This document shows positions 3 through 23,098 of a DNA stretch of 30,252 nucleotides, piece by piece (positions within the stretch are counted from its first letter, which is position 1; each line of letters begins with the position of its first letter). The position numbers were made by a program, and so were the translations under genes. This DNA is from a virus. The notes beneath the pieces are model-generated. The model saw nothing but the letters and a program-made list of their open reading frames with translations. It was not told the origin of the DNA and searched no databases. The DNA lies in IMG/VR virus record IMGVR_UViG_3300020172_000826, positions 1 through 30,252 of that record; one strand, 5' to 3'.

Positions 3-510
3 ATTGCCGGCTTAGGCACAGGCATAAATACCGGAACAGGCACAGGCACTAGTGGAGCAACAACTTCGTTGCAGTTTGATCCATTACAGTATGATACCGG
101 TGTACCTGCTATTGATAGTGGACTTGTTGATCTTGCTGGAAAGTATGCAGATCCTTATGCAGGTGCATTTGTCGGACCTATGCCACAAAGTGATCCTTAT
201 GCAGGTGCATTTGTCGGGCCTATGCCACAAAGTGATCCTTATGCAGGTGCATTTGTCGGACCTATGCCACAAAGTGACCCTTACGCAGGTGCATTTGTCG
301 GACCTATGCCACAAAATGCTACAGACTCAACGATTGCCGGCTTAGGCACAGGCATTACCACTCAAGACACTATAGACTCAACAATTGCCGGCTTAGGCAC
401 AGGCATAAATACCGGAACAGGCACAGGCTTAGGCACAGGCACTACCACCCAAGACACTATAGACTCAACGATTGCCGGCTTAGACACAGGCGTAAATACC
501 GGTGTTACTA
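3..510 (+). repeat. Dispersed STIAGLGTG coding repeats around the 42-bp array
   Basis: The peptide DSTIAGL(G/D)TG is encoded at 324, 375 and 462, and a fourth, cut copy opens the window at base 3. Copies are separated by short Gly/Thr-rich runs (INTGTGTG and TTQDTI). The window therefore begins inside a repeat tract, and the copy number to the left is unknown. Confidence 0.85.
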
Positions 511-3455
511 GCGCACCTGCGGTTGCAGTTGATGTTGATGTTGAAGGCGGCGGTGATGGCGGTGGCCCTGGTGGGTGCTTCTTAACCACTGCGGCTGTGT
601 CTCACATGAACCAGAAAGATAACGGGGAGGTACTTAACACGCTTCGTGAGTTTCGCGATTCATACATGCGTAAAAACAAAGAAAAATCCAAAGACGTTGC
701 GTGGTACTACGAAAACGCCCCGCATATTGTGGCTGCACTTGATAAGCGCCCAGATGCGGATAAAGTATACAAAAAAATGTACCGTGACTTTATTAAGCCT
801 GCTTACAACGCCATTCAAAAAGGGAACGAAGCACGTGCGTATGAAATCTATAAAGACGGGATTGACTTTGCCAAAAAACATTCTGGCATAGATACAAAAG
901 AGCTTACCCCTCGTTATGGGTCTAATGCTATGGCCACTGGTTATGCTCATGGTGGCCCTGTTACTCACTATCAAATAGGTGGAGATGTTATGGGGAATAT
1001 GGCTGAAGCTGAAAAATTGATTAAAGCATTGGAAAGTGGAAAATTAACAGGATATGAGCGCGAAGATGCTTTAAGTAGACTTGCAGAAATTTATAGAAGG
1101 CTTGATGGTGGTTCAAACGCCCCTGGTGATTATGCTGGTTCAAACGCGCCAGGCGGTTTAGGGGTTGGCCCTGGACAAGGGATCAATTCTACAGCTCAAA
1201 GTATAGCACTAGGGTTAATGGCGTTTGCAGATAAATATCCGGTATTGGCTCCTCTAGGCTTTGCAGCTAAAGGTTTGGGATTCCTTGGTGGGAAATTAGC
1301 AGATTCTCAAATAGATAAAATGGCAGAAGCACAAAAAGCATTGGAAACAATCGATAAACAAAACGCTGCCGCATTAGCAAGTAGCTCCTCAAGATCATTT
1401 GATCCTTACGGCGGCACAAAAGGTGTTATGTCCGTAACTGATGTAAATGGAAATGTTAAATCATTTGATCCTTATGCTGGGGATTCTGCTAAAGATGCTG
1501 GCCGTAGTGCAAATCAAGCTACTGCAGCTGATACCGCTGCAGCTGATACATCTGGTACAGGAGGCTTTACTTCAGGTGCAAATGCTGATGGTTATGGCGG
1601 TGGTGATTTAGGAGCGTTCCTTGCAAAAGGCGGCTACATAGGCCGCTACGCACATGGTGGTGCAGTTCGCCACTATCAAGCTGGCGGAGATGTTATGTCA
1701 AGTATGGCCGAAGCAGAGAATCTAATTAAAGCATTAGAAGGTGGAAAATTAACAGGATATGAGAGCGACGATGCCCTGAGTAGAGTTGCAGAAATTTATA
1801 GAATGTTGGATGAGAGGCCATCTGGTATGGACTTAATTCAGCCAATGCCGGAGTCGATAAAACTTACACCCGTAGAGATCAAGCAAGCTATTGCCAATGC
1901 ATCACCGTTGACAGCGTTGAAAGAAACGGTCAGCAATAAACCAATTACAGTAGAAGGCGCTCCACTGGTTAGGCAGGTAGACCCTAGGCTCTACGGTGAA
2001 ACTGACGAGGTTGCTACTGGCCCAGGGTACTCAGCGCCTGTCACCGCCCGAGCTGCACCCCCATCAGTAGACCGAAAATTATTAGACTTAGCAGCAAAAT
2101 ATACAACGCCGGGGTTTACCCCTACATTTGCCGTAGGTAGTGTTGACCCTGGCAAAGACCGAATGGCTCTAATCTCACAGAATGCAATCAAAAACAAAAT
2201 TGCTAACCCTGTAGTCAATATTCAACCTGAGTATTCTGATGACTCGGCTGATCGGTTGTCTATGGTTAAGCCTAGAGACACTGCAATCCCAATGAGTCCA
2301 AACATGGCTGCACTGGAGCGAATGTTGATGGCTACACAGTCTGAAGCGTCACCCTATGCAGTTGAATTGCGTCTTGCTAGGGCTGAGGCAACCGCACAAA
2401 CTGCAGCTTTTAACAAAATGCTGGAGAACGCAATTAAGGGCCAAGACGATAACAAACCATCTAAAGCTGAAATGTACTTTCGGCTTGCGGCTGCATTTGG
2501 TGCACCTACAAAGACGGGGCACTTTGCTGAGAGCCTTGCCGAAGTCAACAAGAGCATGGCAGACCAAGCCAAGGAAACTAGGTTGGCAGGCAAAGCAGGT
2601 CAGGCACTCAAGCTGCAACTTGGCTTAGAAGGTGCCAAGGCCGGTATGACTGCAGCAAAAGAAGATGTTAGGGCACTGCAAGGATTGACCAGCGAAGAGA
2701 TGAAAGAAAAAGCAATCTATAAACGTGAATTGATTAAGGAATATTTTAAATCTGGCGAAGCCCAATCAACTGCTGGAAAGCAAGCACAAGACGAAGGCTT
2801 GACCCCAGGGACTCCGCAATATCAAGCTCGCGTAAAAGCAATCTCTGATGAACAGTTTAAGAGGCTGACCGCCGGGGTGGATGCTGCTGTTGCTGCTGCT
2901 AAAGCAAGTCAGGCACAAATTGAGGGGGCTGCGGAAAATAGAAGACTTGCTAAAGAAAAGTTTGACGCAGCTAAAGATAAAACAAAAGCAGACGCTGCCA
3001 AACTGTCCCCGCCTGAGTTGAAACTTAAGATAGAAACCGAAGATATGATTGGCACGACTCAGCAAGCTATGGATAACTTGCGCCGTGCCTATGCGCTTAA
3101 CCCTACGACATTTGACAATTCACTGCCTGATCTTGCACAACGTAAAATTCTCGAGGCCGCTGGTAGTAAAGATCCCAAAGTTATAGCTACGCGAGAGCTG
3201 GAAAACATTCTTGAGAAAGCAGCACTTTCGGCCCTCAAAGCTACGTTCCCAGGTGCAATCAGTGACGGTGAACGCAAGGCTCTAATGAACACTGTGGGCT
3301 TGGGTTCAAAGAGCATAGAAGAAAGAAAGCTGATTATGGAGAGTGGCTACGAGGCACTTAAATCTGTTTCTGAACGAGCCAAGAAACGTCTAAAACTCAT
3401 CAATGAGGGTCTCTACCGCACTACCACTCCAGCAATTGCAGAGGAGACTGAATAA
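3..3455 (+). CDS. Repeat-rich virion-type protein with CFI-box motif, 5' partial
   Basis: The reading frame is open to the left edge, so the true start lies outside; at least 1150 residues are present. The N-terminal 170 residues are low-complexity repeats: a 14-residue unit (core DPYAGAFVGPMPQ) in four copies, then several copies of DSTIAGLGTGI. Around residue 192 a glycine-rich stretch leads into GGCFLTTAAV, followed by TLREFRDSYM, which resembles the CFI-box domain seen in phage and bacterial surface proteins; its function is unknown. A module (AHGG.V.HYQ.GGDV, then LTGYE..DALSR.AEIYR) occurs twice, near residues 315 and 549. The C-terminal third is rich in Ala, Lys and Glu and probably helical. 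No enzyme motif was seen. Position at the end of the late block, and the following gene, suggest a tail or internal virion protein; this is inference. It overlaps the next gene by one base (TAATG). Confidence 0.8.
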   Translation: MAGLGTGINTGTGTGTSGATTSLQFDPLQYDTGVPAIDSGLVDLAGKYADPYAGAFVGPMPQSDPYAGAFVGPMPQSDPYAGAFVGPMPQSDPYAGAFVGPMPQNATDSTIAGLGTGITTQDTIDSTIAGLGTGINTGTGTGLGTGTTTQDTIDSTIAGLDTGVNTGVTSAPAVAVDVDVEGGGDGGGPGGCFLTTAAVSHMNQKDNGEVLNTLREFRDSYMRKNKEKSKDVAWYYENAPHIVAALDKRPDADKVYKKMYRDFIKPAYNAIQKGNEARAYEIYKDGIDFAKKHSGIDTKELTPRYGSNAMATGYAHGGPVTHYQIGGDVMGNMAEAEKLIKALESGKLTGYEREDALSRLAEIYRRLDGGSNAPGDYAGSNAPGGLGVGPGQGINSTAQSIALGLMAFADKYPVLAPLGFAAKGLGFLGGKLADSQIDKMAEAQKALETIDKQNAAALASSSSRSFDPYGGTKGVMSVTDVNGNVKSFDPYAGDSAKDAGRSANQATAADTAAADTSGTGGFTSGANADGYGGGDLGAFLAKGGYIGRYAHGGAVRHYQAGGDVMSSMAEAENLIKALEGGKLTGYESDDALSRVAEIYRMLDERPSGMDLIQPMPESIKLTPVEIKQAIANASPLTALKETVSNKPITVEGAPLVRQVDPRLYGETDEVATGPGYSAPVTARAAPPSVDRKLLDLAAKYTTPGFTPTFAVGSVDPGKDRMALISQNAIKNKIANPVVNIQPEYSDDSADRLSMVKPRDTAIPMSPNMAALERMLMATQSEASPYAVELRLARAEATAQTAAFNKMLENAIKGQDDNKPSKAEMYFRLAAAFGAPTKTGHFAESLAEVNKSMADQAKETRLAGKAGQALKLQLGLEGAKAGMTAAKEDVRALQGLTSEEMKEKAIYKRELIKEYFKSGEAQSTAGKQAQDEGLTPGTPQYQARVKAISDEQFKRLTAGVDAAVAAAKASQAQIEGAAENRRLAKEKFDAAKDKTKADAAKLSPPELKLKIETEDMIGTTQQAMDNLRRAYALNPTTFDNSLPDLAQRKILEAAGSKDPKVIATRELENILEKAALSALKATFPGAISDGERKALMNTVGLGSKSIEERKLIMESGYEALKSVSERAKKRLKLINEGLYRTTTPAIAEETE
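150..317 (+). repeat. Four tandem 42-bp coding repeats
   Basis: Four in-frame units start at 150, 192, 234 and 276, each encoding DPYAGAFVGPMPQ plus one linker residue (Ser three times, Asn in the last). The units are nearly identical at DNA level, differing at a few silent positions such as gga/ggg and gatcct/gaccct. This indicates recent expansion or homogenisation rather than ancient duplication. The number of units is probably variable between related phages. Confidence 0.95.
945..1812 (+). repeat. Duplicated HYQxGGDV module in the first gene
   Basis: Two copies (945-1107 and 1647-1812) encode AHGG-V-HYQ-GGDVM, MAEAE-LIKALE-GKLTGYE, DALSR-AEIYR-LD. They differ at several silent and replacement sites. 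The spacing residues between them are Ala/Gly/Ser-rich. Confidence 0.88.
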
Positions 3456-8175: not shown

Positions 8176-8244
8176 AACATTGAGACGGCGAGGCTGCCGT
8201 GAGTGCATTGTACAACACTTTTTTGAGTGACATACAATTATTTT
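8176..8244 (-). promoter_or_regulatory. Promoter/5'-hairpin cassette A
   Basis: One of four related cassettes. On the minus strand the -10 is TACAAT (8207-8212) and the -35 is weak (TTGTAT, 19 bp away; degenerate compared with the other copies). The stem ACGGC/GCCGT lies at 8185-8200 with loop GAGGCT in plus-strand reading. The downstream start codon is 13 bp beyond the cassette. The stop codon of the polymerase gene lies inside the -35 part. Confidence 0.75.
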
Positions 8245-10019
8245 GTGACCCCCAGGTCATTAAGCATGGCATGGGCTTTTTTGATGTACCAACCATGGTC
8301 AATGTCATCAGGCAAAGAATCCGGCAGAATCATGAGCGGCTTAGCCCCATCGGTCATAGCAACCTTGTTGCCATTCTTCTTGTAGTGTATGGCTCCTAGC
8401 TCTTCTTTGGCATAGTACCAACGGACTGCTTTACCTAGGTACTCATTGTTCTTGACGGCTCCTCCGGTAACGGCTCTGACTGAGATGAACTTACGAATCT
8501 CTGTACACTCATGGATTGTGGTCTCTATCGGAATGTCAAGCTGTAAGTAATCCACAACGGCCTGCGTACAGATCTGAGTTGTTGGTGTTTTGGACAGGTT
8601 TTCATCGGCATAAACACCTTTGACTTTATAGCCACCATTGCGCTTAAATGCAATGTAGTTGTTGATGTCACGCGAGTAGACTGCAGAATAAGACGTCTCT
8701 TCAGTGCCAAAGCCTGTTGTTCTTTCCCATCTGGCAACAATGGTCTCCATGGCCGCTTGGTTGCGCTTGTGGTAATAGATGATGATGCCATCAGTATTAG
8801 CACTCACAACACTAATCCCTTGTTCTTCAAGGGCCTCAATAAGCATTAGCAAGCTTAGCTGCCCAGTCACTGTTGTTTGAATAAGTAGGTTTGGTCCATA
8901 GAGGGCTGACCACCGTGATCCAAATTTGCCAAAGCTTCCGTTGATCGTAACTTTAAGGGCCTCGTTGACAACCTTGTTGCCTTCTCTTTTTGCCTTGATC
9001 CTTTTCTCCACAAGGGACTTGTAGACAGTTAAAAAGTCAGGCCCGATGTGTTCAGGATAAAGCTTCTGGTTCAGAATGATGCTGGGATAGTAGCTAGTCA
9101 CATCACGGTCAACAATGATGTGGTCGTTGCCGGCTATATAGTGGACCTTTTTCTCGCAAGAATGAATCCCGCCAATGCCTAGTTGGTAGGTGCTAGACCC
9201 GACCTTGATCTTAAGTTTGCCAACCTCTAAGGGTTCAGCAACATCCCCTTTTTCATCGAGTGTAAATGGCTTGGTCTTAAAAATGTCTAAGGCACGGTCT
9301 AGCTCTGGGTGTTTAAACGCAACGAACAACGGAGGGACATAGTTGAATGAAAAGTCTTTAGGCAGACTAGGTCGATAAACTTTCTCTCCCCTGATTGCCT
9401 CAATTTGCTTCTTGATGACTGATTCAGCTATTTGTGCATCTGACTTTGAACGCAGCTCCAAGCGGTACTCTTTGCTCATCTGTTCACGCAGCTCAATCTG
9501 TTCACTGAGCCGGCCGTATAGGTCAACGGTTGTATCTAGGTCGTTGATGCAATAGCTACTTAGTAAGTCTCTTTCGTTTTGCTTGATTGTTGCATTTGGT
9601 TCTATTGGCAAGTCTTGCATGCGCTTACTGTGCAAGCGACCGCCATAAATCTTTAAACTTGCCTTGCCTGGAGCCACCTCAATCAAATCGATGTGATCGA
9701 TGTACATGCACTTGGGTAAGTTGTATTTTGATTCTGCATCCCAAGCTCTAAGGTCCTTGACGATGATGTCATCTGACAGAGCCTTCAGCGTTTGTGAATC
9801 AAAGCCAGCAATGGATCCTTTAAGCAGCAGCAAGTCATAGCGATTGCCATTGAACGTGATGATTGTGTACTTGGACAAAAGGCTTTTAAGTTGCTCAACG
9901 TCAAAGTCTTCCCAGTCTGAGCGTTCAAACGTTGCTATCTTGCCATTAGCAACAGACTTAATGGCAATCAAAAAGTAGTTGACATAGCACTCGATGTCAA
10001 GTACGGCTTTATTCCGCAT
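8238..10019 (-). CDS. Family B-like DNA polymerase with 3'-5' exonuclease, 593 aa
   Basis: The phage replicative polymerase candidate. ATG 10019 is chosen because GGAG lies six bases upstream; a longer frame to 10088 has no such support. Exonuclease motifs: VLDIE (D8, E10), FNGNRYD (N57, D62) and YCIND (Y156, D160). Polymerase motif A is DVTSYYP (D306), motif B is KVTINGSFG (K356-G364) and motif C is ANTDG (D410). The first Asp of the usual DTD is Asn here, while the second, metal-binding Asp is kept. At 593 residues it is short for the family, with little sequence outside the core. It overlaps the dCMP deaminase gene by 11 bp and is the last gene of the cassette-B operon. Confidence is high for a DNA polymerase and good for family B. 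Confidence 0.9.
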   Translation of the reverse strand: MRNKAVLDIECYVNYFLIAIKSVANGKIATFERSDWEDFDVEQLKSLLSKYTIITFNGNRYDLLLLKGSIAGFDSQTLKALSDDIIVKDLRAWDAESKYNLPKCMYIDHIDLIEVAPGKASLKIYGGRLHSKRMQDLPIEPNATIKQNERDLLSSYCINDLDTTVDLYGRLSEQIELREQMSKEYRLELRSKSDAQIAESVIKKQIEAIRGEKVYRPSLPKDFSFNYVPPLFVAFKHPELDRALDIFKTKPFTLDEKGDVAEPLEVGKLKIKVGSSTYQLGIGGIHSCEKKVHYIAGNDHIIVDRDVTSYYPSIILNQKLYPEHIGPDFLTVYKSLVEKRIKAKREGNKVVNEALKVTINGSFGKFGSRWSALYGPNLLIQTTVTGQLSLLMLIEALEEQGISVVSANTDGIIIYYHKRNQAAMETIVARWERTTGFGTEETSYSAVYSRDINNYIAFKRNGGYKVKGVYADENLSKTPTTQICTQAVVDYLQLDIPIETTIHECTEIRKFISVRAVTGGAVKNNEYLGKAVRWYYAKEELGAIHYKKNGNKVAMTDGAKPLMILPDSLPDDIDHGWYIKKAHAMLNDLGVTK

Positions 10020-10437
10020 ACTGACTCCACGCACGACCTGCCAAAACCCACAATTCTTTGCCACTGGATGGGTAGTCTTGATCGGCAACGATGCGCTTTA
10101 TGCTTGTGCATAGTGCAAGTTTTGTGCAGCTTACACATGGAGCAGTTGTGCAGTACAAAGTGTCGGCTTCATCGACTTGACGCAATCTTGCTATTGCGTT
10201 CTGTTCAGCGTGGGCTGACATACACGAGTCAAGTCCAGTGCCGCTAGGCAGTCCGGCTCCTGCACAAGGCACATCAATGCAATGTTGTGACCCTGGGAAA
10301 GACCCGTTGTAGCCGGAAGACAAGATGTATCCATTGCCCGTTATAACAGCTCCAACTTGCCTTCTGGAACAAGTTGCTCTTTTGGCAAATTCCCTAGCAA
10401 CTTGCATGTACGTCTGGTCTAGCGTTGGTCTGGTCAT
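10009..10437 (-). CDS. dCMP deaminase-like enzyme, 142 aa
   Basis: Catalyses dCMP to dUMP deamination in the cytosol, supplying the substrate for thymidylate synthase or dUMP hydroxymethylase. The zinc site is clear: HAEQNAI (H76, proton-shuttle E78) and PCVSC (C101, C104). The N-terminal part SRRQVGAVI and the Gly-rich loop with a further Cys (CIDVPCAGAG) are typical of phage dCMP deaminases. Length is usual. The start overlaps the preceding stop (ATGA). Next to a thymidylate-synthase-like gene, it points to a dUMP-based route to a modified pyrimidine. Confidence 0.93.
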   Translation of the reverse strand: MTRPTLDQTYMQVAREFAKRATCSRRQVGAVITGNGYILSSGYNGSFPGSQHCIDVPCAGAGLPSGTGLDSCMSAHAEQNAIARLRQVDEADTLYCTTAPCVSCTKLALCTSIKRIVADQDYPSSGKELWVLAGRAWSQYAE

Positions 10438-11552
10438 GATGGTTGCCGACCTTCTCTATGCTTGATGTGATTTATGTTAAATATTTTTGAGCGGTCTACG
10501 CTGTCATAGCCTCGAGGCTGGATGTATTGCTCACAGTACCGAATCAAGTCACAACCTGGGGCAGCATCTTCAACGTCCATTGGTCTAGAGTTGAACAAGT
10601 CACAGAACATTCTTGTGCCGGCATCATAAAAGCTTTGTTTGCCCATTTTGCTTATAGGCTTAAAGACCAGCTCAAGGGCTGCGGTTGCGTTTGCGCCATG
10701 ATAGCAGTTTGAATTCTCATCAACAAGTTCTGGAAAGTATTCAGCAATGTCCATGACCCACGCGGTCAATACAAACTTGAACCTTCTCCATCCGTGCAGT
10801 GTCTGCCAATCCAAACACCAGTCAACAGCGGATTGGATTTTTATCGGTTCGGATTGGTCAACTAACCAATTAAAAAAGTCTTGTGCAAGCTTAGGGGCTA
10901 TGTCAACCAGGTACTCACGGCCTCCTTGACTGTAACTAGAAGAAGGCTTGTTGAATGACGGAATTTGATTGCCCATTGAACTAAACATTGGGCCTTCAAA
11001 GTCTTTGATCAACCGCCTAATTGAGTCTGCTCCATCTGCATTCTTGCAGAGGTAAGGAACGGGCGAGTTGTACCAGCCGTGAGGTGGCAGCTTAGCATCG
11101 CCAATCATGGCAAAGCTCGCACCTGAGCCACAAATCCTGTGCACAAGAAAAATGTAGAACCATTCTGCATCATTGAACTTGTCAGCGTAACCTTCACACG
11201 CATAGCCATGTTTAATGTTCCATTTGTGTTTTGGATTGTCTTTGCCTAAAAACATTTCTTGCGGAACGTTTGAAAAGCCAGCAGCCCATCGGCTGACTGT
11301 GTCATAAATGTGGATGTTGTCTTGTAAAGGGCAGCCACTCTTAGTAGACTCAGGCAACAAGCCAACATTACGGTCTTGCAGCAACTTAGCTCTATGATGA
11401 TACGCAACGGCTTCTAGGAAGTAAATCGACGGCTCTAGGTTGTAGTCTGCGCAAAGATCCCATTCTTTGTTCAGTGCGTCACGATATGGATGCCTATCAA
11501 TTTCATGCAACTCCAATGAGTGCAATAGTTCAGGACTATGGTTTAGCATCAT
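10434..11552 (-). CDS. Unrecognised 372-aa protein, candidate DNA-base modification enzyme
   Basis: A mostly helical soluble protein with conserved-looking motifs: FLVHRICGSGASF (about residue 134), PPHGWYNSPVPYL (about 156) and DWCLDWQTLHGWRRFKF (about 244). No P-loop, PLP-lysine or metal motif is evident. The HRICGSGAS plus HGWYN pattern and the neighbours remind me of the helical glycosylase-fold enzymes of phage thymine hypermodification (amino acid:DNA transferases and alpha-glutamyl/putrescinyl-thymine pyrophosphorylases). That is a weak, memory-based resemblance, not a demonstrated homology. It is coupled by ATGA on both sides, to the PLP enzyme gene and to the dCMP deaminase gene. Coding status is very likely; function is tentative. 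Confidence 0.85.
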   Translation of the reverse strand: MMLNHSPELLHSLELHEIDRHPYRDALNKEWDLCADYNLEPSIYFLEAVAYHHRAKLLQDRNVGLLPESTKSGCPLQDNIHIYDTVSRWAAGFSNVPQEMFLGKDNPKHKWNIKHGYACEGYADKFNDAEWFYIFLVHRICGSGASFAMIGDAKLPPHGWYNSPVPYLCKNADGADSIRRLIKDFEGPMFSSMGNQIPSFNKPSSSYSQGGREYLVDIAPKLAQDFFNWLVDQSEPIKIQSAVDWCLDWQTLHGWRRFKFVLTAWVMDIAEYFPELVDENSNCYHGANATAALELVFKPISKMGKQSFYDAGTRMFCDLFNSRPMDVEDAAPGCDLIRYCEQYIQPRGYDSVDRSKIFNINHIKHREGRQPS

Positions 11553-12475
11553 GGTCCACGCTCCAAATCAGACATGTCACCCCATTCCCGCTGGCTTTTT
11601 AAAGGAATGTATTGGACTTGTTTATACTGAGCCACAACTTTGTCATCGGTGCCGACGTTTATGAAGATTGAATCATCAATGCCAAAATTTTCAAAGTCTT
11701 CCCAGCACTTAGCATCATAGTTTGCTGTTGACGGAAAAGGAGGTCGTTTGTTTAGCGGTACGTCTTTTAAAAATGGCTCAGATGCTGACCATAGAATTGC
11801 GTTGCCGATTTCCCCGTCATGCATATTGCGGGCAACAATTACTCCATGACACGCTGCTTTAGGCCAAGCTATTTGCAATGCACGAATGGCTGTTCCAGTA
11901 GACACTGACATCCAAATCTCGCTAGGATCTTTACCTAGTTGTTCAGTGATAAGTCCTGCAAGATTGATGATGCCTGCTGTCACCAATGGCGTTTTGCCTA
12001 GTCCAAAAGGCAAGTACTTTGCTCCATGCTTTTCAGCCCACTTTTTAGCGTAGCTGTTTAAGGTTGGCATTGCTGCAATTTTGATAAAACGCAAGTCAGA
12101 CCCGTAAGACAACAATGCTTTTTGATGCATTGAAGGTTCACCTGATGCTGGACAAAAGAACACGCAATGTTTGCCATAAAGTTTGGCAAGGGTTGCAATT
12201 GCATCCATAGCCATACCTACACGAGGTGCACAATAGACCAAGACGTCTTCTTTGCACTCGGCTATCAACTGCTCAGCACCATAGCCTTTCAAGCTGCTTG
12301 CACTGGCATCGCCTCTGAATACCCACTTTTTGCCGTGGACTTGGACTACTGGGGCTGACAACTTTGACTTAAAGTCATTGCGCATTGCAATGTAGTAGGA
12401 CCTTGCATCATGTCTGCCCCAGCCCGCCGGGATGTCCATGTTTGACTTGCTTGTTGTGCATGTAAAAATGCTCAT
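11549..12475 (-). CDS. PLP-dependent fold-type-II enzyme (tryptophan synthase beta/ACC deaminase-like), 308 aa
   Basis: ATG 12475 overlaps the preceding stop (ATGA), so a TTG four codons upstream is rejected. The layout fits fold-type-II PLP enzymes: an early Lys in SASSLKGYG (K63, candidate Schiff base), an alternating beta/alpha core (VLVYCAPRVGMAMDAIATLA, CVFFCPASGEPSMHQKALL) and a phosphate-binding-type loop SVSTGTAIRAL (190-200). At 308 residues it matches ACC-deaminase- or cysteine-synthase-like sizes. Such enzymes catalyse beta-replacement, elimination or deamination of amino acids. A PLP enzyme beside a pyrimidine hydroxymethylase candidate suggests amino-acid chemistry on a modified base; this is inference, and the Lys assignment needs a structure-based alignment. 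Confidence 0.82.
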   Translation of the reverse strand: MSIFTCTTSKSNMDIPAGWGRHDARSYYIAMRNDFKSKLSAPVVQVHGKKWVFRGDASASSLKGYGAEQLIAECKEDVLVYCAPRVGMAMDAIATLAKLYGKHCVFFCPASGEPSMHQKALLSYGSDLRFIKIAAMPTLNSYAKKWAEKHGAKYLPFGLGKTPLVTAGIINLAGLITEQLGKDPSEIWMSVSTGTAIRALQIAWPKAACHGVIVARNMHDGEIGNAILWSASEPFLKDVPLNKRPPFPSTANYDAKCWEDFENFGIDDSIFINVGTDDKVVAQYKQVQYIPLKSQREWGDMSDLERGP

Positions 12476-13428
12476 AGTTGACCCCAATCAAAACGACGGT
12501 AAAAGGGCGGTGCAATGTGCACCGATGAGTTAAGCTCCATAAAAATGTTGGCGTACTCTTCAGGGTCTACAGAGTACCAGCTGCTTGGCGGACTGATCAA
12601 GCATTGTTGGCTCATTTTGTCCATGAACAATTCAGTCCAACACTTCCTTTGATCTACAGTCCCGCTGAATGGTGTTCCTTTATAAAAACCTGTTTGAGGA
12701 ATCTTGCGCTTTTCCCATTCGATTGGTACAGGGGCGGCAATCTCAACTTGGACGTCATACTCATCCGCTAAAAAGTCGGCCACATCTGAGTAGTTGCTGC
12801 ATAAGTCAATGATGGCTTGTTTAGGGGCGCTCTGTCGACCGATATGATGTCGGATGTCTATTGATCCACAGACTAATGTTACGCGCCTTGGTTTGTGAAC
12901 CAAGCGGCCTATTTGCTCAACAAAATGGCCTTTTTGCAATGCCCCATGCAAAGTTAGTCCGTTGGTCCGGATTACACCAGATCCGCTATCTGCAAAGGCT
13001 GTTGAGTGACTGTCACCGATTGCAACTACGTCATTTTTAAGATCTTGCTGAGTCAGTGTGGTCGAGGCTTGAAGGCGTGCATCCAAGTTGGCCAAAAGGG
13101 CAGACGTCAGCCTAGTTGAGCATGTGGCTTGGCCTAAGCGTTTAGACAATTGATGAGCATAGTTTGGCATAGGCCAGTCTAGACTAACCAACTGGCCTTT
13201 GTAGTTTGCCAACTCTTCAAGCTTGTCAACTAAGCTTTCACTGACCCCTCCAAACAGATTGAGTACCCCGCCAAAATTGACGCCGTGCTCAATGTATAGG
13301 GTTGGGCAAGTTAGCTGGTCAGTTGGCTTTGCAACAGGCACACCAAGGCATTCTGCCCAGTGTATAGCCCAACCACGCACATGTGACTTAGGCCTTATTG
13401 GTATGTTTTGAAATGGGTTGTAAATCAT
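12472..13428 (-). CDS. SGNH/GDSL-like phage protein, 318 aa
   Basis: Residues 133-142 read DVVAIGDSHS, matching SGNH block I (GDSxS), and residues 184-195 read TLVCGSIDIRHH, resembling the later G-x-(N/D)-D block of phage and bacterial SGNH proteins. The C-terminal part has WYSVDPEEYANIF and VHIAPPFYRRFDW; a His here could be the catalytic one. The known family hydrolyses esters or moves acyl groups. The substrate is not evident. It sits between the hydroxymethylase-like and PLP genes with ATGA overlaps at both ends, so a part in nucleobase or nucleotide modification is more likely by context than a cell-wall role. Fold call is moderate; function is unknown. Confidence 0.75.
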   Translation of the reverse strand: MIYNPFQNIPIRPKSHVRGWAIHWAECLGVPVAKPTDQLTCPTLYIEHGVNFGGVLNLFGGVSESLVDKLEELANYKGQLVSLDWPMPNYAHQLSKRLGQATCSTRLTSALLANLDARLQASTTLTQQDLKNDVVAIGDSHSTAFADSGSGVIRTNGLTLHGALQKGHFVEQIGRLVHKPRRVTLVCGSIDIRHHIGRQSAPKQAIIDLCSNYSDVADFLADEYDVQVEIAAPVPIEWEKRKIPQTGFYKGTPFSGTVDQRKCWTELFMDKMSQQCLISPPSSWYSVDPEEYANIFMELNSSVHIAPPFYRRFDWGQL

Positions 13429-14162
13429 TTGACAAGCCCGATGTGTCGTGGATAAATGTGTAGAGAGCCTGCATTCCAGTGCATGTTGCCTTTGACTAAG
13501 TCAGGGTAAGTTTGTTGCAACCTGATCAAAGCAAAGTCATGGACTAAATTTTGCCAAAAGTAGTCCCCCTTGAAGCCATAGACTGCATCATTGGAACGCA
13601 TGTTGACAATGTGGTGCAACTGACCGGCACGAATGAGCAGCTGGGTACTGTATGTGCACATGAAGTCACGCATGCCGTCGATGACCGAGTCTTCGTGCAT
13701 TGAAGGTCGGATGTAGATGATCACGGCTTGTCGGCTTTCTTTGTTTGAGACAAGGGAGTCAATTGCTTTATGGAATTGATAGCCGTTCTCAGCGCTGAAG
13801 ACACACCATCCATAGTTTGAGTTGATCAGTCCTTTTGAACTTGCAACTTGTTGCCAGACTGCAGGCACAGGTGGTGCAATGTCATTGATGTTCAATGACT
13901 GACTCACGTACCAACGAAGCTCACGGGCATTCCATTCGGCATTCACCTCACCAAAAATGGATGGCTCATCGGCAATGAATGATGCATTGACAATCTCCAA
14001 CATTCCAGATTCGTCTGGCTTCATGGCCTTAAACTGGTCTCTGATTCTTTGGACTGCTGTAAGGTATGGTTTAACAGGTTTGAAAGGCTCAATCTGGTCA
14101 AACATTTTCTTTCCACGTTCGTAGAATTCTTTGTCTTTTCCGGTGTTGTTATCTTTACTCAT
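13425..14162 (-). CDS. Thymidylate synthase-like dUMP/dCMP hydroxymethylase candidate, 245 aa
   Basis: Recognisable ThyA-family core: the catalytic Cys in MCTYSTQ (C169, with Gln five positions later as in CHxxxQ), then MRSNDAVYGFKGDYFWQ (189-204), which aligns with RSxDxxLGxPFNIxxY, and SLHIYPRH near the C-terminus (family HxY). R143 in SRQAVI fits the phosphate-binding arginine. Two differences from true thymidylate synthase: the His after the catalytic Cys is Thr, and the Asn that reads the base (E. coli N177) is Asp200, as in dCMP hydroxymethylases. This favours 5-hydroxymethylation of a pyrimidine dNMP using methylene-tetrahydrofolate. Whether the substrate is dCMP (suggested by Asp200) or dUMP (suggested by the nearby dCMP deaminase) is open. 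Coupled by ATGA to both neighbours. Confidence 0.87.
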   Translation of the reverse strand: MSKDNNTGKDKEFYERGKKMFDQIEPFKPVKPYLTAVQRIRDQFKAMKPDESGMLEIVNASFIADEPSIFGEVNAEWNARELRWYVSQSLNINDIAPPVPAVWQQVASSKGLINSNYGWCVFSAENGYQFHKAIDSLVSNKESRQAVIIYIRPSMHEDSVIDGMRDFMCTYSTQLLIRAGQLHHIVNMRSNDAVYGFKGDYFWQNLVHDFALIRLQQTYPDLVKGNMHWNAGSLHIYPRHIGLVK

Positions 14163-14959
14163 TTTTGAACCCCTACAAAGCGGTCGTCTTTATCTTTGTT
14201 GTGAGTTGTGTGCTCCATCAAGATAAAGAGTTGGGTTCCAGCATGGGCAAGGTGAGGCAGCCCTGATTCTGGATCAATGTCTTCACCTTGCCAAAAAGCA
14301 AAAAGGTGCCTTAGTATTGACCCATAAGTACGTGACCAAGCAACAGTCTCGCCTTGACGGTATGAGTTGGCAAAGTACTTCTTGGCACCAAAGCCAAACA
14401 CATTGGCAACCTGCATCATTGGATCTATCGGCAGCAGGTCTACTCGCACCTTTGTTGAGTCAAACTTAGGTGCAAAGCCATCTACAATATTGCCATCTGA
14501 ACTAGGTGCTATGGTCCCATCTGAACTAGGTGCAATCTTGATATTGCTGAGCAAGTTTTCAAGTTTGTGAGTTGCAGGAACTCGGTCAATGATTTGTTTG
14601 AGCTCTTCTTCAGGGCCAACCCAACCTTTAGGTTTGACTAGGTCACGCTTGAAGCCACCCCGCTTCTCACCATTTTGGCCAACCTCTTTGGCCATGTTTG
14701 CTTTCATGACTTTCTCAAAGCCTTCAAGCAATGGCAGTCCTTGTCGGTCAAGTGTACCGACAGCAAATACGATCAGATCGAGAAGGGCATCATACTCGTC
14801 GACCAATGTTGTTGCTGCGTTGTACTCATCAAGTTCCTCTTGCAAGGCTTTGACTCGGAATGCTTTTTCATGAGGTTCAAGATGCCAAGGTAGACCGGCA
14901 CTGGTCAAACCAAATTTCTGATGCATGGCCTTGACAAGGCCCATAATCCTGCTTTCCAT
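14159..14959 (-). CDS. MazG-like/dATP-dGTP diphosphohydrolase-type fusion, 266 aa
   Basis: Two nucleotide-hydrolysis modules in one chain. Residues 1-105 are MazG-like, with the helical acidic pattern LQEELDEYN...DEYDALLDLIVF that binds metal in this family. Residues 163-260 match the dATP/dGTP diphosphohydrolase N-terminal-type domain of phages (KFDSTKVRVDLLP, FGAKKYFANSYRQG, ILRHLFAFWQGEDIDPESG, LPHLAHAGTQLFIL). The linker holds two copies of IAPSSDG. A strong AAGGAG precedes ATG 14959. Such enzymes hydrolyse (d)NTPs and reshape the nucleotide pool, which would fit making DNA with a replaced base. The stop overlaps the hydroxymethylase start (ATGA). Confidence 0.87.
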   Translation of the reverse strand: MESRIMGLVKAMHQKFGLTSAGLPWHLEPHEKAFRVKALQEELDEYNAATTLVDEYDALLDLIVFAVGTLDRQGLPLLEGFEKVMKANMAKEVGQNGEKRGGFKRDLVKPKGWVGPEEELKQIIDRVPATHKLENLLSNIKIAPSSDGTIAPSSDGNIVDGFAPKFDSTKVRVDLLPIDPMMQVANVFGFGAKKYFANSYRQGETVAWSRTYGSILRHLFAFWQGEDIDPESGLPHLAHAGTQLFILMEHTTHNKDKDDRFVGVQK

Positions 14960-20532: not shown

Positions 20533-20736
20533 ATGGACTCTCCGCAGCCAACCTCTTCAATAGAAGGCCGCGTTTATGACAGCTGTGACGCAACCCGCAT
20601 TTATCTCTCTGAAGCCATAAAGGCTACATCCAATTTGCCAAAAGGTATGAACAGAACGGCTTTGATCGTTGCGTTCATGGAGATTGGTGTGGCGGCACTC
20701 CTTGCCGACCAAGCAAGGGGAAGCCATGCAAACTAA
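20533..20736 (+). CDS. Hypothetical small protein, 67 aa
   Basis: First plus-strand gene after the divergent control region; it overlaps the primase-helicase gene by 11 bp. The product starts MDSPQPTSSIEGRVYDSCDA and then has LSEAIKATSNLPKGMNRTAL, which could be a small regulatory or ribbon-helix-type protein. No strong Shine-Dalgarno is visible. Function unknown; position suggests a replication accessory or regulator. Confidence 0.65.
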   Translation: MDSPQPTSSIEGRVYDSCDATRIYLSEAIKATSNLPKGMNRTALIVAFMEIGVAALLADQARGSHAN

Positions 20737-23098
20737 ACCTACAGTTTTAGCAGTCTTACCAGAATTTATCCCTCAGGCTCTTAAGGCCATCCCTAGATGG
20801 GTCGTTTGGAAGCTAGTGCTTGACGGTAAGAAGTGGAAAAAAATACCGTATCAAACAAACGGTCGAATGGCAAAGAGTACAGACCCTAGTACATGGTCAA
20901 CGTATGAAGATGCACTAGATGCCTATTTTGTGGATGGTTTTGATGGCATAGGCATCACAATCGATGGCTCTGGTGACTTCCAAGGCATAGATCTAGATGA
21001 CTGCATCATTGATGGCAAAATGAACCATGTGGCCAATGAGCTGCTAGACCGGGTTGATGGCTATGCAGAGACCAGCCCTTCAGGTGCGGGCATCAAACTG
21101 TTCACTCGATCAAACTTAGCCAAGTCAGGCAAAGTTGGTGACATTGAGGTTTATAAGGAGGGTCGCTACTTCACAGTAACAGGTCACACCTTGAACGGTC
21201 ACGGCCTTTTGCCGGACACTATCCAAGATGTAGGTTGGTTTGTTGAAAAGCATTTTGGGTCTAACGAGGCTCTTGGCCTTGAGTCCTATAAGCCTCAACT
21301 GTCAGACTGGGATCTTGAGCGGGTAGAGATTGAGTTGCTGCCATTCATAGGTGACCTTGAGCCATACGACTTATGGCTTCAACTCGGTATGGCTTTGCAC
21401 CATCAGGGCAGAGGCGGTGAGGAATGGATGGAGTTATGGGATAAAGCCAGCCGAGAAACCGGTTCATACGATCGCCGTGAGTTGGAGTCTAAGTGGGACT
21501 CATTTAGTGAACAACACGGTTCAGGAGGCGGTGCCATAACCCTTGCCTCGATCATCAAAAAGGTCATTGAGTTCAAGAAGGCTGAGCAGACCAGGACTTT
21601 TGATCGGTGTAAGGCTTTGATTGTTGACGAGACTGATCTTGAGCAGCTCAAGACGGTGGTAGTTGAGGCAATCAAAGCCGAACTTGGTCTTGACCACATC
21701 AGTCGCAACGTTTTGGCAGGCATCCTAAAGACCAAGTTCAAGGACCTGAACTTTCCAATCTCGATTGGTGACGCAAAGAATCTGATCAAACCAAAGATTC
21801 ATGAGGGTGTACCAGAATGGTTAGGTGATTGGGTTTATGTCACACATGAAGACAAGTTCTTTAATGTGAATAGCAAAAGGAAAGTCTCGCAACAAGGTTT
21901 TGGTGCAATGTTCAACCGGTTTTGTGGTGATGACTCAGCAGCTACATTGTCCTTGGATCTGTTTAGGATTCCTACTCCGGACAAGATCATCTACTTGCCT
22001 GCTGCTGATGATCTGTTTGAGCTCAATGGGATTGAATGTGTCAATGAATACAACAAGAACAGTCCGCCAGATGTGCCTGCTTCTTTGAGTGCAGGCGATC
22101 TTAAAGCCATTCAGGTTGTGCAAGCCCATCTGTCAATGATCTTGATTGAACAACATGCCGTAGAGATCATGCTTAGTTGGATGGCTTACTGCGTTCAGAA
22201 TCCAGGGTCTAAAATTCGATGGGCTCCGTTGATCAAAGGCATTGAGGGCGATGGCAAGTCGGTGCTTGGCAACTTGATGATGGGTGTGATGGGTATGGCC
22301 AACGTAGGCATTGTGTCACCCAGTGTATTGGCAACTGGCTTTACGAGTTGGGCAGCAGGCAGGTGCGTCAACGTGCTTGAGGAGATTCGGATGGTTGGTC
22401 ACAACCGTCACGACGTGCTGAATACCATAAAGCCGTACATCACCAATGATCAGGTCACAATACACCCGAAAGGGATCAACGAGTATGTGGCACCAAACAC
22501 GGTCAACTACATTGCATTCACAAACCACCATGATGCCCTTCCACTTGAGGATACGGACCGCCGATGGTGGGTTCAATTCACACCTTTTAATGACCAACAT
22601 GAGTTGCTCAAGGTTGCTGATTCGGACTACTTCAGCAATCTGTTCAATGCCATAAAAGATCATTCACCTGGACTCAGGAAGTGGTTGCTTGAGTACCAAC
22701 TCAGCCCATTGTTCAATCCGAAAGGCCAAGCACCATCATCTTTAGCTAAAGACCAGATGGTCAGTTTGAACGTAAGTGAGGATTTTGGGGTTGTAAAAGA
22801 ATTACTACTAGAAGGTGGTTACGGCTTTAATGATCAAATTTTGTCTAGCCGCCACTTCACAACAGCGCTAAGTTTTGTTGAAAATATTGAAGTGCCAAAG
22901 ACCATTTCGTTGAACAAAATCTTCATGAAACTTGGCTATTCTGCGCTTGGACACCCTGTTAAATGGGAAGGGAAGGCTTGCACAATATGGCTAAAAGGTT
23001 CGTACTTGAAAATGTTTAAAGGGATGGAAAAATCTGAAGTGAACGAACAAATTAGAAATTTATTGGAAAAAACGCAAGGCAAAGACCTTTTAAGCTGA
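20726..23098 (+). CDS. Primase-polymerase/SF3 helicase (NrS-1 polymerase-like, DUF5906), 790 aa
   Basis: ATG 20726 is chosen because AAGGGGAAGCC directly precedes it; the upstream frame is an overlap. The N-terminal 190 residues look like an archaeo-eukaryotic primase/PrimPol domain: PRWVVWKL, GIDLDD (D89, D91), ETSPSGAGIKLF and RYFTVTGH (H154). Residues about 195-290 match a primase C-terminal (PriCT-2-type) domain (LGMALHHQGRGGEEWMELWD). The C-terminal part is an SF3-type helicase with Walker A GIEGDGKS (505-512), Walker B VNVLEEIR and a sensor-type AFTNHHDALPLEDTDRRW. It should prime and unwind at the phage origin; the iteron region follows its stop directly. Confidence 0.9.
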   Translation: MQTKPTVLAVLPEFIPQALKAIPRWVVWKLVLDGKKWKKIPYQTNGRMAKSTDPSTWSTYEDALDAYFVDGFDGIGITIDGSGDFQGIDLDDCIIDGKMNHVANELLDRVDGYAETSPSGAGIKLFTRSNLAKSGKVGDIEVYKEGRYFTVTGHTLNGHGLLPDTIQDVGWFVEKHFGSNEALGLESYKPQLSDWDLERVEIELLPFIGDLEPYDLWLQLGMALHHQGRGGEEWMELWDKASRETGSYDRRELESKWDSFSEQHGSGGGAITLASIIKKVIEFKKAEQTRTFDRCKALIVDETDLEQLKTVVVEAIKAELGLDHISRNVLAGILKTKFKDLNFPISIGDAKNLIKPKIHEGVPEWLGDWVYVTHEDKFFNVNSKRKVSQQGFGAMFNRFCGDDSAATLSLDLFRIPTPDKIIYLPAADDLFELNGIECVNEYNKNSPPDVPASLSAGDLKAIQVVQAHLSMILIEQHAVEIMLSWMAYCVQNPGSKIRWAPLIKGIEGDGKSVLGNLMMGVMGMANVGIVSPSVLATGFTSWAAGRCVNVLEEIRMVGHNRHDVLNTIKPYITNDQVTIHPKGINEYVAPNTVNYIAFTNHHDALPLEDTDRRWWVQFTPFNDQHELLKVADSDYFSNLFNAIKDHSPGLRKWLLEYQLSPLFNPKGQAPSSLAKDQMVSLNVSEDFGVVKELLLEGGYGFNDQILSSRHFTTALSFVENIEVPKTISLNKIFMKLGYSALGHPVKWEGKACTIWLKGSYLKMFKGMEKSEVNEQIRNLLEKTQGKDLLS

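Follow-up and report, generated by a model that had tools for sequence, protein, structure and literature searches.

A conserved SGNH-HEL-PLP gene module in uncultured phages as candidate machinery for amino-acid-derived hypermodification of cytosine

In phage T4, the cytosine specificity of the deoxycytidylate (dCMP) hydroxymethylase is set by Asp179 (PMC6400193), and in thymidylate synthases (TS) the change of Asn177 to Asp shifts the preference from deoxyuridylate (dUMP) to dCMP (PMC8670742). Asp is also the common residue at the TS 177 column in contigs with modified cytosine, and a neighborhood of TS, PRA-PH, and dCMP deaminase genes has been reported for phages with this modification (PMC8670742). 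The Aeromonas phages 44RR, 31, and 25 encode a dCMP hydroxymethylase but no glucosyltransferase, according to a 2010 T4-genome review (PMC2993671). In the thymidine system of Pseudomonas phage M6, the gene cluster includes gp51 (ADDT), gp52 (PALP), gp54 (HMUDK), gp55 (HMUDK_hel), and gp58 (TS). To our knowledge, amino-acid-derived DNA hypermodification is described for thymine only. Here, we analyze a six-gene cluster in the uncultured virus record IMGVR_UViG_3300020172_000826, the whole stretch of which (30,252 nucleotides) is referred to as the window. In this cluster, a ThyA-fold hydroxymethylase gene (HM) is accompanied by genes encoding a GDSL/SGNH-fold protein (SGNH), a fold-type-II pyridoxal-phosphate enzyme (PLP), and a helical protein (HEL). 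We consider it rather probable, with substantial room for doubt, that this cassette replaces cytosine by a hypermodified cytosine, in which 5-hydroxymethylcytosine (5hmC) would receive an amino-acid-like group by means of HEL and SGNH and PLP would trim that group.

Uncultured viruses were searched with HEL and with PLP, and the neighboring genes were classified. A single PLP scan matched 484 viral contigs, and 121 PLP loci, clustered at 80% identity, gave 30 clusters. Genes encoding both SGNH and HEL lie within 6 kb of PLP in 26 of the 30 clusters, or in 27 with locus L025, where SGNH is fused to HEL. SGNH, HEL, and PLP form a conserved three-gene module. Many independent contigs have the complete set of genes, so it is not a chance arrangement. 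Three loci (L078, 4736-7005; L083, 4725-7000; L098, 4725-7000) bear a second, more distant HEL-like gene, in the order SGNH-HEL-HEL-PLP. An earlier reading of this DNA, made from the sequence only, had named surface polysaccharide modification as a role of the middle proteins that would speak against base modification; for SGNH and PLP we reject this role on the conserved context seen in 27 of the 30 PLP clusters. The three exceptions are an Erythrobacter phage (L002), a Microcystis phage (L003), and the L065 group (records G024 and G030), and their records yielded no SGNH. In Erythrobacter phage ZS04 (L002, 2326-4764), a single protein joins the PLP domain to an N6/N4 DNA methylase, and in Microcystis phage Mae-JY30 (L003, 7387-9705), PLP follows two ParB/sulfiredoxin genes. 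Neither phage yielded a ThyA homologue, and the two loci appear to represent another PLP-dependent DNA-modification context.

The identity of the modified base is indicated by HM, which matches PF00303 (Thymidylat_synt; E 6.9e-13) and whose best relatives are T4-type dCMP hydroxymethylases, with 44-50% identity. Its residue D200 aligns with the position of T4 gp42 Asp179 and E. coli TS Asn177 and is invariant in 22 of 22 aligned cassette-linked HM homologues, many of them at only 19-30% identity; C169, at the position of the catalytic Cys, is invariant in the same alignment. Further hydroxymethylases found in long cassette contigs are of the Asp type too, as is gp42 of the Aeromonas phages 44RR, 25, and avDM9-HANS. 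Asn occupies the specificity column in M6 gp58, ViI gp60, and both TS homologues of G024. Since HM is closest to T4 dCMP hydroxymethylase and keeps the Asp, it is assigned here as a predicted dCMP-type hydroxymethylase, and cytosine, not thymine, as the base to be modified. The earlier proposal of a pyrimidine hypermodification pathway sharing the logic of the thymine systems is thus retained in its outline, whereas the dUMP route and the thymine base of those systems give way to cytosine, as the relatives of HM are dCMP-type and D200 is Asp rather than Asn. Hypermodification of thymine via 5-hydroxymethyluracil (5hmU) on the pattern of M6 or ViI, by means of a kinase gene located outside the window, would agree with the PLP family in common and the similar gene logic. 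We nevertheless reject this route, leaving it next to no probability, on the Asp of HM and because HMUDK, ADDT, and HMUDK_hel were not found in the cassette genomes searched among the relatives. The first gene of the cassette, MAZ, matches PF01503 (PRA-PH; E 3.4e-6) and PF18909 (dGTP_diPhyd_N; E 2.5e-28), and MazG-type or DUF6378 genes adjoin most cassettes. By analogy with T4 gp56, MAZ is proposed to be a dCTP-removing pyrophosphohydrolase. At L012 (4706-5475), MAZ is present as two open reading frames (ORFs), one per domain.

PLP matches the Pfam family PALP with an E value of 4.4e-6 and 26.7 bits, under the cut-off of 35, and phrog_7093, annotated as "threonine dehydratase," with an E value of 2.3e-44. 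The sequence-only reading could not place this enzyme in a described route. Its profile matches M6 gp52 (E 1.8e-11), which is PALP by Pfam and is encoded beside ADDT and near HMUDK and HMUDK_hel, so that the window enzyme can be placed as a distant homologue of gp52, judged by profile similarity. G024 and G030 carry the thymine kinase HMUDK (PF18748), ADDT (PF18724), and HMUDK_hel (PF18723); their PLP is 60% identical to that of the window and falls, in the PLP tree, in a fully supported clade of ten that includes the window. Because a PLP enzyme with 60% identity sits in phages with the thymine set, one PLP enzyme is shared between thymine-type and cytosine-type systems. G024, a 101.8-kb record, contains two copies each of thymine-type TS, HMUDK, ADDT, and HMUDK_hel, which could be due to duplication or to two joined genomes.

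Among solved structures, cysteine synthases and O-acetylserine sulfhydrylases are nearest to the PLP profile (E 1.6e-7), and K67 (numbered from the TTG at 12487), the proposed Schiff-base Lys, is invariant. The proximity to O-acetylserine sulfhydrylases would suit a PLP that makes a free donor, for example a non-standard amino acid from O-acetylserine in the manner of cysteine synthase, which HEL and SGNH would then attach to 5hmC, so that the finished base would be a cytosine carrying this metabolite. The presence of the same PLP in cytosine and thymine systems fits a donor-making enzyme equally, and the Aeromonas phages 44RR, 25, and avDM9 carry SGNH without a PLP match. We deem this alternative unlikely, since M6 gp52, the nearest relative that can be placed, belongs to a thymidine pathway, and in such pathways PLP enzymes reportedly decarboxylate the DNA-bound amino acid, and the fusion of PLP to a DNA methylase in the Erythrobacter phage suggests action at the DNA. 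Fold-type-II enzymes of the cysteine synthase kind carry out beta-replacement, and PLP might add serine itself, with aminoacrylate from O-acetylserine or phosphoserine reacting with the 5hmC oxygen to give a serine ether with no need for a kinase; HEL would then present the base, and SGNH would edit or hydrolyze esters. Such chemistry would be in line with the cysteine-synthase-like nearest structures and would explain the missing kinase, but G024 and G030 have both PLP and the kinase, so the PLP step does not substitute for the kinase there, and we regard a serine ether as improbable. Trimming of a group already attached to the DNA is the role that we prefer for PLP.

As the sequence-only reading had stated, there is no P-loop DNA kinase in the window, where the sole P-loop motif found lies in a primase/helicase ORF at 20669-23098; a P-loop base kinase was likewise not found in the 54-56 kb relatives G001 and G007. 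Its suggestion that a 5-hydroxymethyldeoxyuridine (5-hmdU) kinase might be encoded beyond the window was followed up in relatives: PF18748 gave no match in the window or in seven relatives, which are possibly fragments, with M6 positive in a like search. The kinase is present in G024 and G030, which carry the thymine set. HMUDK, ADDT, and HMUDK_hel were all undetected in the 54-62 kb relatives G001, G007, G025, and G026, as were ADDT and HMUDK_hel in G013, G014, and G022, and neither HMUDK nor a cassette-type kinase was found in the relatives of G001 and G007. Given that the window, G001, and G007 yielded no P-loop kinase, SGNH may take the kinase's place, and the second step may, as the sequence-only reading suspected, be new. 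P-loop kinases extended at the C terminus by an additional domain of about 150 amino acids (aa) are encoded in the cassettes of L013 (10623-11666), L014 (11050-11985), L018 (6628-7629), L077 (7890-8867), and L110 (7738-8733), and that of L013 has no Pfam HMUDK match.

The structural model of SGNH has a predicted local distance difference test (pLDDT) score of 94 and resembles GDSL esterase structures with Z scores up to 12. The residues G138-D139-S140-H141 and H304 are invariant in 41 sequences, and Lipase_GDSL was weakly matched by 4 of 42 SGNH relatives in a Pfam scan. SGNH is homologous to the N-terminal half of ORF233c of Aeromonas phage 44RR, and in both 44RR and avDM9-HANS it is fused to an HMUDK_hel-like domain (E 0.0009 and 0.0022, respectively, below the Pfam cut-off). 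These fusions, together with that of SGNH to HEL, tie SGNH to the transferase step, and the proposed target of SGNH is the 5-hydroxymethyl group or the adduct formed on it. Among 84,980 bacterial species genomes, SGNH was found in 14 contigs, whose titles are mostly those of metagenome-assembled bins and which are possibly phage DNA.

For HEL, the AlphaFold2 model has a pLDDT of 88 and a predicted template modeling score of 0.89. In a Foldseek search of a viral structure library, its second match is annotated in UniProt as "Amino acid:DNA transferase" (30% identity, E 9e-21), its fourth match is another protein of that name (E 1.7e-4), and weaker matches (E ~0.1) are HMUDK_hel of PhiW-14 and the 5-hmdU kinase (HMUDK) of SP10. 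Foldseek against the PDB returned noise only, and no informative match to a solved structure came from profile searches with HEL or SGNH. In a structural comparison with the PDB, four chains exceeded a Z score of 2, and these belong to two entries only, the AGOG 8-oxoguanine glycosylase and the queuosine enzyme DUF2419. From this fold and the gene context, we propose that HEL is an amino acid:DNA transferase with a DNA-glycosylase-like fold; the protein that had been listed as an unknown helical one has thereby gained a resemblance in fold to this group of transferases, although not a match in sequence. The match to AGOG would also accommodate a working DNA glycosylase directed at host or unmodified DNA, with SGNH and PLP in other host-takeover roles and plain 5hmC in the phage DNA. 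We hold this to be very improbable in view of the close viral models, which include amino acid:DNA transferases, of the conserved SGNH-HEL-PLP arrangement, and of the exchange of HEL within operons.

This exchange is apparent when the window is compared with L058 and L061, to which identity is 77% for PLP, 82-87% for the deaminase, and 76-80% for HM but drops to 31-32% for HEL. In the HEL tree, the window groups with L012, L018, L013, L014, and L110 (100/99), in conflict with the PLP tree, where it groups with L058 (99/97). HEL alone has been replaced inside related operons, as one would predict if it were the component that determines the attached group.

In the scheme favored here, MAZ would remove dCTP, HM would turn dCMP into 5-hydroxymethyl-dCMP, the phage polymerase would build in the 5-hydroxymethyl-dC triphosphate, and the dCMP deaminase would supply the dUMP/dTMP pool, as in T4. 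Up to replication, family membership and the cytosine-specific Asp are seen in the proteins themselves, and we infer the substrate of MAZ and the order of the steps by analogy with T4. After replication, HEL would bind the 5hmC base and, with SGNH, attach an amino acid or another amine-bearing group to the 5-methylene carbon, and PLP would trim the attached group, the role ascribed to the related M6 enzyme for 5hmU-derived bases. SGNH occupies the place that a P-loop base kinase has in thymine systems and may convert the hydroxymethyl group into an activated ester; this is the least certain step, and we infer it together with the final product. A further-reaching version, in which the amino-acid-derived cytosine is made kinase-free, with SGNH replacing the base kinase by activation or acylation of 5hmC in DNA, a swappable HEL setting the group, and the same kind of enzyme decorating the 5hmC of 44RR and 31, is put forward tentatively, as a possibility that we doubt more than we believe.

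Several observations weigh against the scheme. The window may be a fragment. A P-loop kinase resembling thymidylate kinases is encoded in some cassettes and could act either on nucleotides, making 5hm-dCDP, or on the base. The pairwise identity of M6 gp52 to the window PLP is about 21%. In the SGNH clade of the window, the block III Asn is replaced by Ser (GSID, with GNID in most relatives), and the unfused SGNH of Aeromonas phage 25, which lacks a HEL match, indicates that SGNH can occur without HEL. The similarity of HEL to AGOG and DUF2419 has a Z score of 8.4, a value reachable by unrelated helical folds, and a root mean square deviation of 5.2-5.8. No Pfam model, PF18724 and PF18723 included, was reached by any of the 31 HEL members scanned, and the profile-profile comparisons of HEL with HMUDK_hel and ADDT are weak (pairwise E 0.086 and 0.12); in the alignment with HMUDK_hel, which is not significant, the expected motifs line up.

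The gene order on the minus strand is MAZ, HM, SGNH, PLP, HEL, and dCMP deaminase, followed by the DNA polymerase (Table 1). Consecutive genes of the cassette overlap by 4 nucleotides (MAZ/HM at 14159-14162, HM/SGNH at 13425-13428, SGNH/PLP at 12472-12475, PLP/HEL at 11549-11552, and HEL/deaminase at 10434-10437), with the ATG at 12475 being a better start for PLP than the listed TTG at 12487. The polymerase is next in the operon, its ATG at 10019 overlapping the deaminase gene. The earlier description of six contiguous, coupled genes directly before the polymerase is accurate, and family scans concur with its names for MAZ, the ThyA-like protein, the PLP enzyme, and the deaminase; window SGNH and HEL had no Pfam match in these scans. 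The ratio of nonsynonymous to synonymous substitution rates between the window and its near relative L009 is 0.035-0.145 for all six genes, which denotes purifying selection. Elsewhere in the window, an ORF of 1128 aa at 69-3455 has no PHROG match at an E value of 0.001.

Table 1. Genes of the candidate cytosine hypermodification cassette and the adjoining DNA polymerase gene in the window
Gene	Position	Strand	Description	Family match
MAZ	14159..14959	-	MazG-like (PRA-PH) domain fused to dGTP_diPhyd_N domain	
HM	13425..14162	-	Predicted dCMP hydroxymethylase, ThyA fold	
SGNH	12472..13428	-	GDSL/SGNH-fold protein	
PLP	11549..12475	-	Fold-type-II pyridoxal-phosphate enzyme	
HEL	10434..11552	-	Helical protein, DNA-glycosylase-like fold (model)	
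dCD	10009..10437	-	dCMP deaminase	PF00383 E 3.1e-20; phrog_174 E 8.6e-36
DNA polymerase	8238..10019	-	DNA polymerase	phrog_1252 E 2.7e-201

Two different HEL queries against 50,697 isolated-phage records gave no match, so the search revealed no cultured phage that carries the whole module. Records of isolated phages with SGNH number 38 for Aeromonas, 2 for Stenotrophomonas, and 3 for Tenacibaculum. In Aeromonas phage 25 (L233, 267-3538), the unfused SGNH is accompanied by two genes that are not conserved in 44RR, one for a UDP-galactopyranose mutase (GLF, E 5e-54) beside it and one for a 358-aa protein of no known family. The SGNH of phage 25 perhaps acts with a sugar, in a different, sugar-based decoration of 5hmC. 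In Tenacibaculum phage PTm1 (L234, 6566-7585), an SGNH homologue is located between ribonucleotide reductase genes, and a divergent TS homologue encoded elsewhere has Asp at the specificity column, in an unsure alignment.

No account of an amino-acid-derived cytosine from phage DNA turned up in the literature searched, most subscription papers being outside the search. The cassette would be a cytosine counterpart of the thymine system, previously unrecognized and common in uncultured phages, and, if our interpretation is true, it would yield a DNA base of a new kind, and SGNH enzymes would have a further role in nucleic-acid chemistry. It also offers a candidate answer to a question raised in the 2010 review, namely how Aeromonas phages without glucosyltransferases protect their DNA (PMC2993671), and this question is directly testable, as 44RR, 31, and 25 are in culture.

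Compared with known systems, the window is like the M6 thymidine system in combining a ThyA-fold hydroxymethylase, a PLP enzyme of the same family, and helical DNA-modifying enzymes or a candidate for one, near a DNA polymerase. It differs in its Asp-type hydroxymethylase and in having SGNH and HEL, with no HMUDK, ADDT, or HMUDK_hel at the sequence level. With T4 5hmC synthesis (gp42, gp56, and cd) it has in common the dCMP hydroxymethylase, the NTP pyrophosphohydrolase, and the dCMP deaminase; however, SGNH, HEL, and PLP are found in the window operon where T4 uses glucosyltransferases, and no T4 gp1-like kinase was seen in the window. The neighborhood of Asp-type TS, PRA-PH, and dCMP deaminase is also that of the 5hmC carbamoyltransferase cassettes identified by MetaGPA (PMC8670742), whereas the proteins of the window operon, to which this search was confined, include no carbamoyltransferase and have SGNH, HEL, and PLP instead. 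The Aeromonas phages 44RR and 25 share with the window an Asp-type gp42 and a homologous SGNH, which in 44RR is fused to the HMUDK_hel-like domain, and phage 31 has a related SGNH as well; 44RR, 25, and avDM9-HANS differ from it in having no HEL or PLP match, and the window brings together SGNH, HEL, and PLP in one operon.

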